Assembly: GCF_030296015.1 (NCBI RefSeq)
Contig: NZ_AP027368.1
Span: 2,542,001 to 2,606,000 of the forward strand
From: Ferrimonas sp. YFM
Lineage (GTDB): Bacteria; Pseudomonadota; Gammaproteobacteria; Enterobacterales; Shewanellaceae
Direction of reading: 5' to 3'
Length of the DNA: 64,000 bases
The notes under the pieces are model-generated. The model was given only the letters and a program-made list of their open reading frames with translations. It was not told the DNA's origin and did not search any database. This document shows, piece after piece, positions 13,995-20,900 of the stretch. The translations under genes and the position numbers were made by a program. The stretch's first letter is position 1. Every line of letters begins with the position of its first letter.

Positions 13995-14049
13995 CTTGAT
14001 ACTCCAAATTGTTCGTTCAGGCTATCTGCTCAAGAAACCCGCTTGAGTC

Positions 14050-14222
14050 AAATCAGCAAACCGAGGTAGGTCTCCTGGCTCTCAGCATCCCAACCCTCTC
14101 CTTCCCGGTTTCCCAGTGGCGTTTTAAGGGTCGCTCTGATTACAGTTGCAGGTACAGCCGCGGATTCTCACCGCGTTCCCTGTTATGCGCTGGGGGTAAA
14201 TCCCGTTCGCACCTTGGTTTGG
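14050..14222 (-). promoter_or_regulatory. Cobalamin (AdoCbl) riboswitch upstream of btuB
   Basis: On the minus strand the leader contains GGTGAGAATCCGCGGCTGTA followed by CCTGCAACTG, then GCCACTGG and CCGGGAAGG. It ends with the B12 box AGCCAGGAGACCTACCT at 14064-14080. These blocks and their order are the conserved core of the cobalamin riboswitch. It lies about 200 bases before the btuB ATG and should repress the transport and biosynthesis operon when corrinoid is abundant. The outer limits are approximate. Confidence 0.95.
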
Positions 14223-14250
14223 AGGCATGATAACCATGCCACGGATTGAG

Positions 14251-18646: not shown

Positions 18647-19093
18647 ACCCTTCTCCTTCAAACATCAAGTGAGCCAGCTGAGCTGGCACGACTGTCCCTT
18701 GTTTGGTTTCAACCCCTCACAATCCAGGCCCCCCCGGACAATCCCCATTAAAGTCGAAGCCAGTGCCGCCTAGGAAACGCTTCCCTGCCCCACTGCTCCC
18801 GACCTCTGTCTACATGGTTGAAAACCAAAAGAAACAAATTAGAGCAATTGCTCTATTTTCAAGATTAAGGTAACACAGCCCCACAGAGATGTTGTGAAGC
18901 AGATCAAGATTTATCGGGAATGGTTAAAGCCCCAGCAAAGGTCTAGAGCCCTTTAGTGGGCCGCAACCAACAACAGTAGACTGAACGGCCCCCATTCATC
19001 TACCGCGCTATGTAAGATGAAGTGGAGCAATTGAACCATACCCCAGGCGGTGTTAAGGTCTCCTGGTTTTCAATATTGATGAGGAGGTGCGCT
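18647..19093. other. Gene-free stretch between the DUF5692-like pair and the methyltransferase leader
   Basis: About 450 bases without a credible ORF. It should hold the promoter of the minus-strand DUF5692-like pair and that of the plus-strand leader ORF. The only clear element is the palindrome at 18840-18855. A partial CRP-like match (TGTGA, six bases, TCAAG) at 18893-18908 is too weak to call. Confidence 0.6.
18840..18855. promoter_or_regulatory. 16-base perfect palindrome, candidate operator
   Basis: TAGAGCAATTGCTCTA is its own reverse complement. The length and symmetry suit a MarR- or TetR-type dimer. It lies about 190 bases upstream of the DUF5692-like pair and there is no regulator gene next to it, so a regulator encoded elsewhere would be needed. 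Confidence 0.45.
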
Positions 19094-19171
19094 ATGAAAG
19101 TTAAAAAGATGAACAAAGCGATGTTATTGACCATGGTGACGCCTCAATTTTCGGCTTTAGGCAAAGTTTAA
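19094..19171 (+). CDS. 25-codon leader ORF before the methyltransferase gene
   Basis: ATG to TAA gives 25 residues with a very strong ribosome-binding site, GAGGAGG, seven bases before the ATG. The peptide has a basic start (MKVKKMNKA), a short hydrophobic middle (MLLTMV) and ends TPQFSALGKV. The stop lies 46 bases before the methyltransferase ATG in the same direction. It may be a regulatory leader peptide, because its codons include one arm of an alternative RNA structure, or a short modified-peptide precursor. Being so short, its coding status rests on the ribosome-binding site and position. Confidence 0.45.
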   Translation: MKVKKMNKAMLLTMVTPQFSALGKV

Positions 19172-19212
19172 GTCCTGGCCTGCGTCACCTTTATCTTGTG
19201 TTTATTGGTGAC
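19135..19212 (+). promoter_or_regulatory. Candidate attenuator with two mutually exclusive stems over the methyltransferase ribosome-binding site
   Basis: Segment 1, GGTGACGC at 19135-19142 inside the leader ORF, is complementary to segment 2, GCGTCACC at 19182-19189. The last six bases of segment 2 (GTCACC) are also perfectly complementary to segment 3, GGTGAC at 19207-19212, which contains the GGTGA ribosome-binding site six bases before the methyltransferase ATG. A ribosome covering segment 1 would favour pairing of 2 with 3 and hide the site. The arrangement is seen in the sequence; its function is inference. Confidence 0.4.
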
Positions 19213-19217
19213 TATTC

Positions 19218-20057
19218 ATGTATCGTCAATTAATCGAAATTAATAAGAAACCAGCGCCTTTTGAGAGTATTACTACCCTCGAACTTTGGACAGATCCTCA
19301 TCGCGCCGAGCAGATGCTGGCGTATCATTTGAGTGATGCGACCGAGCTTGCTTCCCGCTCTACAGGTCAACGTCAAGCGTCGACCAATTGGATGATCCAG
19401 CATTTTGGAATTAAGTCAGGTACTCGAGTTTGTGATTTTGGCTGCGGTCCTGGACTATATACTCAGGCCTTCGCTCGAGCTGATGCCAAAGTAACAGGAG
19501 TCGATTTTTCAACTAACTCTTTGCAGTATGCCCGCACCCAAGCGCGTAAATCTGGATTGGACATCAATTACATTGAAGCCAATTATCTTGAATTTGAAAC
19601 CGACCAGCGCTTCGATCTCATTACGCTTATTTACTGCGGCTTCTGTGCCCTGAGCCCTGAAAACCGTGCCAAATTGCTGAAGAAGTTCGAGAAGCTGCTT
19701 ACGACGGGAGGCCGTATCATTCTGGACGTCCACTCCCTCAATGCGTATGCGCAGCGCCAGGAATGCAGCAGTTATGAGAAAAATCAGCTTGGCGGGTTTT
19801 GGTCAGCAAAAGAGTATTACGGGTTTCTCACGACCTTCAAGTATGACGATGAGAAGGTGGTGCTCGATAAATACACCATCATCGAGCCCAATAACAGCTA
19901 CACAATCTACAACTGGCTACAGTACTTTGACAAAGCAATGCTGGAACAGGAATTTTTCAAGGCTGGTCTTCAGATTGAGTTGATGTTGGATGAGCTTGAT
20001 GGGCAGGCTTATACCGGCACTGACCCTGATATTGTTGTGATCGCGAAACGCGCTTGA
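19218..20057 (+). CDS. Class I SAM-dependent methyltransferase
   Basis: A 279-residue protein with a Rossmann-like methyltransferase core. Motif I is VCDFGCGPGLYTQAF near residue 76, followed by VTGVDFSTNSLQYAR and the post-I acidic region. The N-terminal block LELWTDPHRAEQMLAYHL is shared with a widespread family of stand-alone methyltransferases of unknown substrate. GGTGA lies six bases before the ATG. Base composition is lower in GC than most neighbours, which hints at separate ancestry. A terminator follows directly, so it is either monocistronic or forms a unit with the leader ORF. Confidence 0.88.
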   Translation: MYRQLIEINKKPAPFESITTLELWTDPHRAEQMLAYHLSDATELASRSTGQRQASTNWMIQHFGIKSGTRVCDFGCGPGLYTQAFARADAKVTGVDFSTNSLQYARTQARKSGLDINYIEANYLEFETDQRFDLITLIYCGFCALSPENRAKLLKKFEKLLTTGGRIILDVHSLNAYAQRQECSSYEKNQLGGFWSAKEYYGFLTTFKYDDEKVVLDKYTIIEPNNSYTIYNWLQYFDKAMLEQEFFKAGLQIELMLDELDGQAYTGTDPDIVVIAKRA

Positions 20058-20075
20058 TATCCAGTACTTAAACCT

Positions 20076-20100
20076 AAGCCGCCCCCTGGGGCGGCTTTTC
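20076..20100 (+). terminator. Rho-independent terminator of the methyltransferase gene
   Basis: AAGCCGCCCC and GGGGCGGCTT form a GC-rich stem followed by TTC TCTCT. It lies 19 bases after the methyltransferase stop. Confidence 0.85.
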
Positions 20101-20129
20101 TCTCTACTGGAAGGAGTCAACTCAGCCAG

Positions 20130-20522
20130 TTACAGGGTTGGCAGAGTCTCACAGTGGAAATACGCAGCCTCAACTGTTGATGAACGCTCGTACACACCGC
20201 CGAACGAGTTGGAACCGGCGAAGCCACGATTGATGTAGTTCGCCCCCAACGTTACGGCTTTCTCTGCAAAGGTCGAGTTGATACGTCGTTCGACTTCAGC
20301 GTCATCATCACCAATAGAGAAGACACCTGCAATGCTGTGAGTATTGGGGTTAAATTCTGACGTTCCCTTAATGGTGCAATTGAGAGCCTTATCAGGGTTA
20401 GCGTAAGCAATGCGAACGGTTTCCCCTGTCGATGTAATAAAATCACTGGCAAGTGGCGCCACAATGGTTGCGCACCCCACTAAGGTGGAAACAGATACAG
20501 CGATGAGAATGTTACTCTTCAT
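20130..20522 (-). CDS. Small putative lipoprotein
   Basis: A 130-residue protein with a lipobox-type signal (STLVGC, Cys17), so probably attached to a membrane on the periplasmic side. The mature part has SIGDDDAEVERRINSTFAEKA, GANYINRGFAGSNSFGGVY and a C-terminal cysteine (FHCETLP). The pattern of a lipoprotein with a conserved 'GAN-I' block recalls small envelope-stress lipoproteins such as DUF4156, but the family is not certain. It is monocistronic and faces the methyltransferase terminator. Confidence 0.75.
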   Translation of the reverse strand: MKSNILIAVSVSTLVGCATIVAPLASDFITSTGETVRIAYANPDKALNCTIKGTSEFNPNTHSIAGVFSIGDDDAEVERRINSTFAEKAVTLGANYINRGFAGSNSFGGVYERSSTVEAAYFHCETLPTL

Positions 20523-20900
20523 TCTATTACCCTTGTTGTTTTGAACCGCGTTTATGTTATCTCAAGGGCGGCGGTGGAAGAACATGGCTAAAATGACTTT
20601 TCCGCATACTGCAATGACGTTAAATCACCCTATGACAGCCAATCACAACACAAAACTGTAACCAGCTGATCACATTGTTTTTTTTGTTTTCCTGTATCAC
20701 TGACTTCCTGCTCTTCTGCTGTGCCCTCCCTCTAGCACAGAGACTCAATTCAGTAATTCGTTCCTACGCGGAGATCCAGTTCACAGATTAAGCTGACGGT
20801 ACGAAATCGACTATTTGCCGGACAAAATCGACCTCCATTCCTATTGAAGCATTAATTAAATTTTCTCTTGCGAAAAAATAAAATCGCAGAGGAAATGATG
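20523..20900. other. Gene-free stretch between the lipoprotein and the octaheme cytochrome
   Basis: About 380 AT-rich bases that must hold two divergent promoters. A T8 run occurs near 20680. TGTAACCAGCTGATCACA at 20658 has CRP-like half sites but an eight-base gap, so it is not called. No small ORF with a good ribosome-binding site is visible. Confidence 0.55.

Follow-up and report, generated by a model that had tools for sequence, protein, structure and literature searches.

The window analysed here, a 64,000-nucleotide stretch of the 4.66 Mb genome of Ferrimonas sp. YFM, contains a short leader open reading frame (ORF) in front of a gene for a class I SAM-dependent methyltransferase, together with a set of segments that have the potential to pair with one another (Table 1). 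A sequence-only reading had proposed a translational attenuator at this site, with a 25-codon ORF that is preceded by GAGGAGG and ends 46 bases upstream of the methyltransferase gene; these coordinates are exact. Likewise, the proposed complementarity of GGTGACGC inside the ORF to GCGTCACC in the spacer holds to the base, and the GTCACC part of the spacer segment is indeed complementary to GGTGAC at the methyltransferase ribosome-binding site (RBS). GGTGAC is common to segments 1 and 3, and the partner of segment 3 is spacer segment 2. Beyond what had been described, we found a fourth element, segment 0, which spans the RBS and start codon of the leader and has the potential to pair with segment 1 in both Ferrimonas species considered below. 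The terminator-like hairpin downstream of the methyltransferase, one of two such hairpins observed in the region against 1.6 expected from shuffles, suggests that the gene is probably transcribed apart from the next one.

Table 1. Features of the leader and methyltransferase locus, in window coordinates.
Feature	Position	Strand	Basis or remark
Leader Shine-Dalgarno, GAGGAGG	19081..19087	+	Sequence; AGGAGGTG identical in six of six loci
Segment 0, leader RBS and start codon	19084..19096	+	Pairing with segment 1 predicted, in Ferrimonas only
Leader ORF, 25 codons plus TAA, peptide MKVKKMNKAMLLTMVTPQFSALGKV	19094..19171	+	Sequence; same-place ORFs in five other loci
Segment 1, inside the leader ORF	19132..19145, core GGTGACGC at 19135-19142	+	
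Segment 2, 3' of the leader stop	19179..19192, core GCGTCACC at 19182-19189	+	Partner is segment 1 or segment 3
Segment 3, GGTGAC, the methyltransferase Shine-Dalgarno	19207..19212	+	Same element precedes the methyltransferase in five further loci
Class I SAM-dependent methyltransferase, 279 aa, ATG at 19218	19218..20057	+	Methyltransf_25, E 5.7e-20
Terminator-like hairpin 3' of the methyltransferase	20076..20097	+	Pattern scan

Further upstream, a perfect palindrome, TAGAGCAATTGCTCTA, lies between two divergent genes at 18840-18855, and a second copy of GGAGCAATTGAA lies at 19024-19035, about 60 nt before the leader; the two together are a possible transcription-factor operator. An Rfam scan of the window gave no match at the leader at curated thresholds, its sole match being a cobalamin riboswitch on the minus strand (14048-14231, 96.9 bits). 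The five other leader loci described below gave no Rfam match either, and a search of a 351-base region with E values up to 1 returned two matches, both to eukaryotic families and far under the gathering score. Neither Rfam nor the terminator pattern scan thus supports reading the leader as a terminator or a riboswitch. Among the matches listed in a search of open-licence PMC papers, we did not find this leader or gene described.

Scanning a genome collection of 84,980 species with two peptide patterns for the enzyme yielded 234 relatives, the best 80 of which were fetched. Five of these best 80 of 234 carry a leader ORF, an RBS and the three segments upstream of the enzyme: Ferrimonas marina (L011), whose enzyme is 69% identical to that of the window, a Desulfocapsa MAG (L012), Candidatus Venteria (L013), an Ornatilinea MAG of the Chloroflexota (L017), in which segment 3 reads GGAGAC, and a MAG titled Proteobacteria (L024), its genome sampled within the family of the Desulfocapsa genome. 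With the window this makes six known leader loci, among which L012, L017 and L024 are MAG contigs that could be misbinned. The leader ORF of the other five loci has 22-33 codons, occupies the same place and follows a long Shine-Dalgarno sequence; in all six leaders, 7-8 bases there are complementary to the 16S rRNA tail. Across the six loci, the 16-nt scan windows for segment 1 begin 89-91 nt, and those for segment 2 39-49 nt, before the methyltransferase start. The F. marina leader is 24 nt longer than that of the window, a difference that keeps the frame. Towards their ends the L012 and L013 leaders are in different frames and their last residues differ, but their stops lie within 5 bases of each other. 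Dinucleotide shuffling of leader and spacer around an unchanged RBS produced a leader/spacer match of 8 bases in 2.0% of 200,000 shuffles, and in six of 200,000 the spacer arm of such a match also fitted the RBS over 6 bases, odds that apply to one chosen site after the earlier reader had scanned 64 kb; the recurrence of the three elements in five further loci is, by sequence comparison, the stronger evidence.

The same survey limits how widely such a leader can be expected. The sequence-only reading had counted homologous loci that keep the methyltransferase and lack the ORF as evidence against itself, and 75 of the best 80 of 234 relatives are of this kind, with no such leader in the same place. 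These 75 enzymes are 47-53% identical to that of the window and fall outside the leader-bearing groups of the tree, which confines the switch to a small, apparently mobile group. For seven of the 80 (L037, L047, L051, L054, L068, L073 and L082) the match starts elsewhere than at a start codon, and the stretch taken as upstream may therefore be misplaced. A pattern scan independent of any covariance model, covering 81 sites (the 80 fetched and the window), placed ten within its limits; four of these (L070, L086, L059 and L028) we took for chance, as their ORFs and segments are for the most part positioned elsewhere and their Shine-Dalgarno matches span 6-7 bases. A covariance model built from the four non-Ferrimonas loci matched the window weakly (22.8 bits, tied with an unrelated match), missed F. 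marina (L003; leader 24 nt longer) and found neither Ferrimonas leader at E 0.01 in their whole genomes; its failure on F. marina indicates that a divergent leader could escape detection. Among the further enzymes from whole-genome searches around the window and the other leader-bearing genomes, those read and those scanned with the covariance model showed no leader, the model, applied to both strands, being the basis for L096, L097, L099, L109, L110, L115, L117 and L118; the L004 gene is that of L052 (Paraferrimonas), and its upstream region was read as L052. Across 394 genomes of the order, with F. marina not among the genomes listed, the exact pattern occurred in the window only. Two scans of viral contigs confirmed no relative, phages gave one weak match, and plasmids gave 7 and 3 records, all below 60% identity.

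The sequence-only reading had looked to related loci for a conserved leader ORF and compensatory changes in the three segments; the ORF recurs in all six loci and stem 1:2 shows such changes, whereas stem 2:3 does not covary beyond the level of shuffles. In an alignment that leans towards the structure, the segments of the six loci having been hand-aligned on the pairing and then joined, 57 of 60 cells of stem 1:2 (10 pairs) are paired and five of the ten pairs have changed on both sides. Its covariation score of 0.553, against 0.334 in shuffles, was reached by none of 500 shuffles, and the best slid version of the stem attained 66.7% paired cells and a score of 0.207, against 95.0% and 0.553. 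Since only six rows are available, in two groups, the independent covariation events are few. Stem 2:3 (8 pairs) is paired in 43 of 48 cells with no covariation beyond chance (289 of 500 shuffles reach it), and one of its arms is the Shine-Dalgarno sequence itself. In the five pairs of loci compared, the stretch from the leader stop to the enzyme start has 77-93% identity over aligned bases (7-19 gap positions), against 47-77% at third codon positions of the enzyme; the leader region overall and the enzyme gene are similarly conserved (72-89% and 70-88%), and a further 200 nt upstream gave no meaningful alignment between the compared loci. As far as comparison of the six loci can tell, the leader is a real, conserved cis-regulatory element with one covarying stem.

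How the stems would exchange differs between the loci. Stem 1:2 is the stronger duplex in all six (-15.6 to -19.8 kcal/mol, versus -8.7 to -13.9 kcal/mol for 2:3). Stem 0:1 is a strong duplex within the predicted minimum-energy folds of the window (-20.3 kcal/mol) and F. marina (-18.6 kcal/mol), and a weak one in the other four loci (-3.1 to -7.2 kcal/mol); the two base differences between the Ferrimonas species in segment 0 each leave the pair intact in the predicted folds (G-U to A-U and U-G to C-G). By this prediction, the Ferrimonas RNA can hold either 0:1 together with 2:3, with both RBSs closed, or 1:2, with the enzyme RBS open, a layout like the stem order of ermC; in the four other loci, folding energies indicate that 1:2 competes against 2:3. 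Folded whole, the window leader is no better than its shuffles (z -0.88; 38 of 200 at least as good), and the corresponding z values are -1.31 for F. marina, over a shorter stretch without the enzyme RBS, -3.71 for L012, -2.68 for L013, -3.62 for L017 and -1.04 for L024. The mutually exclusive stems that the earlier reading saw competing for the methyltransferase RBS are borne out in six loci, 1:2 by covariation with compensatory changes and 2:3 by conserved complementarity only. The erm-like logic that it drew from them stands in Ferrimonas with the added 0:1 stem and does not follow from its three segments alone, with which a ribosome covering segment 1 would shut the RBS, a sense opposite to that of erm; the erm-like sense needs stem 0:1, which is predicted in both Ferrimonas and not in the other four loci.

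From these elements, their positions, their conservation and the covariation of 1:2, we infer a switch, a direction and a translation-stress signal (e.g., a ribosome-targeting drug), and consider that the leader is, on balance, probably a ribosome-operated translational attenuator of a non-Erm methyltransferase. The strongly initiated leader ORF would overlie segment 1, one hairpin arm, and segment 2, past the leader stop, would pair with either segment 1 or the methyltransferase Shine-Dalgarno sequence. Ribosomes running through the leader would keep segment 1 single-stranded, allowing 2:3 to form and leaving methyltransferase synthesis off or low; ribosomes held at the first codons by a start-codon or early-elongation stall would leave segment 1 free to form the more stable 1:2 stem, and translation of the methyltransferase would follow. 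A leader without ribosomes should be closed as well in Ferrimonas, its RBS being paired with segment 1 (0:1 alongside 2:3), and induction would then depend on a ribosome halted at the start of the leader, similar to ermC.

We examined this order of events with a footprint model in which a 29-nt block is placed on each leader codon in turn and the energy cost of an open enzyme RBS is calculated (in kcal/mol). For Desulfocapsa, Venteria and Ornatilinea, the cost is 4.3-5.9 at codons 1-7 against 6.7-11.6 at codons 9-18, and the difference between on-segment and early positions was reached by 1, 0 and 0 of 200 shuffles, respectively; clear closing of the RBS once the ribosome reaches segment 1 is therefore predicted for these three. 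The modelled contrast is weak or mixed in the other three loci, where the same difference is not significant: L024 (7.0-7.5 at codons 1-7, 7.5-9.8 at codons 9-18; 35 of 200 shuffles), F. marina (17 of 200) and the window (42 of 200). The window costs 9.4 without a ribosome and 5.3-6.0 at codons 1-5 (6.0 at codon 1, 5.5 at codons 2 and 4), followed by 9.1-9.4 at codons 6-9, 5.0-5.8 at codons 10-14, 7.1-7.8 at codons 15-19 and 8.3-11.4 at codons 20-25, so that codons 6-9 are closed and codons 10-14 fairly open, contrary to the simple order of events. F. marina costs 8.6 without a ribosome, 6.8-6.9 at codons 1-9 and 7.5-10.2 later (8.1-10.2 at codons 24-34). At rest, the two Ferrimonas RBSs are modelled as more closed (9.4 and 8.6) than those of the other four (4.8-7.5), and a ribosome at codon 1 lowers the cost to 6.0 and 6.9, respectively, while the others stay within 0.6 of free RNA. 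The free-minus-early difference, a statistic picked after on-segment minus early had failed for Ferrimonas, was reached by 4 of 400 shuffles for the window and, without significance, by 42 of 400 for F. marina. With a ribosome on codons 1-5, the RBS in every one of the six loci is modelled as either more open than in free RNA or no more than 0.4 kcal/mol away from it.

It is possible, though we think it unlikely, that the same switch answers a metabolic input (starvation, low initiation or slow decoding of early codons) rather than a drug, in which case the enzyme would belong to stress or methyl-group economy. The early window codons (MKVKKMNKAM) do include several Met, Lys and Asn, and the model requires merely that ribosomes not reach segment 1; against this, no run of codons for a single amino acid is common to the six leaders, and the stand-alone, scattered distribution of the gene is more suggestive of defence or detoxification. 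A late stall, near the end of the leader ORF or on its stop codon, with the ribosome covering segment 2 and thereby freeing the methyltransferase RBS, is quite improbable. Modelled costs do fall again from codon 20 to the stop in Desulfocapsa and Ornatilinea (4.8-5.9) and are low to middling in Venteria (5.9-7.6), and the L012 and L013 stops keep their place despite the differing last residues; however, the late codons of both Ferrimonas leaders are closed at the costs given above, and the C-terminal residues of the leaders are not conserved. A fixed 1:2 hairpin that presents the RBS or protects the mRNA, with the ORF incidental, would agree with 1:2 being the only stem with covariation, but we hold it very improbable given an ORF whose match to the 16S rRNA tail complement is kept in six of six loci and whose 24-nt length difference within Ferrimonas preserves the frame. 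Chance repeats around a Shine-Dalgarno word, finally, are hardly credible and were rejected on the shuffle count and the covariation of stem 1:2 with compensatory changes in five other loci, even though GGTGA is itself Shine-Dalgarno-like, which makes one arm cheap, and the window leader does not fold above its shuffles.

The earlier statement that the gene is not an Erm enzyme agrees with its Pfam profile: 11 families match, led by Methyltransf_25, and rRNA adenine dimethylase is not among them; a weak FtsJ match (E 1.7e-6) is one of the general SAM-domain matches. No NCBIfam model scored above its cut-off among the best 25 of 40 matches listed. In the AlphaFold model (pLDDT 93.4), the closest folds among the matches listed are CcbJ, CypM, NmbA, TylM1/DesVI and other small-molecule methyltransferases, at 12-21% sequence identity, a likeness of fold that does not show a common substrate. 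No rRNA methyltransferase appears among the matches listed (50 in each of two fold searches), which carries no weight as proof. The closest PDB sequence is 9rfr, named ubiquinone biosynthesis O-methyltransferase (E 3e-21; 1e-30 with a profile). A defence role was considered and set aside, PADLOC matching nothing but mad2, over residues 25-173.

The gene is sparsely distributed, being present at E 1e-30 in 5 of 152 genomes of the family with the window genome counted. In a sibling genome (G005), DNA homology to the window ends at 18923 and returns at 20772 with other genes between, so that window 18924-20771 is a variable patch between conserved genes; the G005 counterpart (L133 2659-5260) is occupied by different small genes, among them two that read as glyoxalase/VOC-like. 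By eye, gene neighbours differ at each of the five other leader-bearing loci, and the F. marina leader is preceded, on its own strand, by a gene that reads as a TetR-family-like regulator (L011 2111-2704). On a quick tree built from 86 rows, the Ferrimonas pair stands apart from the other four leader-bearing enzymes; a tree with all six in one clade, tested on 51 of the 86 rows (long rows and others dropped), outscored the unconstrained quick tree by 20.4 log units (p-AU 0.843), so a single clade is not rejected, and one origin followed by horizontal spread is plausible. A separate pattern concerns the leaderless relatives. TTATG(T/C)G or TTATGTC, a motif like that at the ends of integron attC sites, occurs within 70 nt upstream in 14 of the best 80 relatives (L014, L015, L016, L030, L033, L039, L043, L045, L046, L049, L053, L066, L067 and L078), as against 15 of 1521 control stretches, and in none of the five leader-bearing loci. 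These 14 look, from their flanks, as if they were integron gene cassettes, and cmlA-type attenuation is a precedent within integrons.

Leader-ORF translational attenuators are best known from resistance genes. In erm leaders, as outlined in PMC5118997, a short ORF and an RNA structure over the methyltransferase Shine-Dalgarno sequence are switched by a stalled ribosome, and the window likewise combines a short leader ORF, a predicted structure that can take up the RBS and a downstream methyltransferase gene. Unlike erm, the enzyme is not an Erm rRNA methyltransferase, no arrest motif is seen at a common position of the leaders, and four of the six loci lack a stem closing the leader at rest. 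K/R-X-K/R, named as an arrest motif in the abstract of PMC8298421 and in PMC12121999, occurs by eye in five of six leaders at differing codons, and no conserved arrest motif is apparent, again by eye, in the six peptides. A second parallel is E. coli toiL, the uORF of topAI-yjhQ-yjhP, which, according to PMC12121999, senses ribosome-targeting drugs, tetracycline and retapamulin holding ribosomes at its start codon and thus freeing the downstream RBS; this response to start-codon stalls is the kind of signal favoured by the present model. The toiL uORF itself pairs with the RBS (PMC12121999), whereas here a spacer segment pairs and the in-ORF segment competes. The yjhP gene of that operon is annotated as a putative methyltransferase, and YjhP is 26% identical to the window enzyme over 78 residues, covering part of the SAM-binding domain only. 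Furthermore, Bacillus subtilis yxjB/tlrB has a leader peptide and a Shine-Dalgarno-sequestering hairpin upstream of a methyltransferase, freed by a stalled ribosome (PMC6851288), which resembles the leader ORF and Shine-Dalgarno-pairing segment of the window; unlike the window leader, it also has a transcription terminator and a tylosin stall at RYR (as summarised within PMC12121999), and its enzyme methylates 23S rRNA.

Perhaps the leader and enzyme form a mobile drug-sensing cassette, in which a stall-operated leader controls a small-molecule methyltransferase that modifies a ribosome inhibitor or other toxic compound, spread among Gammaproteobacteria, Desulfocapsaceae and Chloroflexota. We regard this as speculative and rather unlikely; if true, it would mean inducible protection by methylating the compound, not the ribosome. 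More generally, finding a covariation-supported leader upstream of a non-Erm methyltransferase in bacteria of marine and sediment habitats draws attention to an unstudied gene, and offers a simple reporter for natural compounds that hold ribosomes at the leader start. These cells seem to want the methyltransferase only when translation is disturbed, which makes the leader a way into what this methyltransferase family does.
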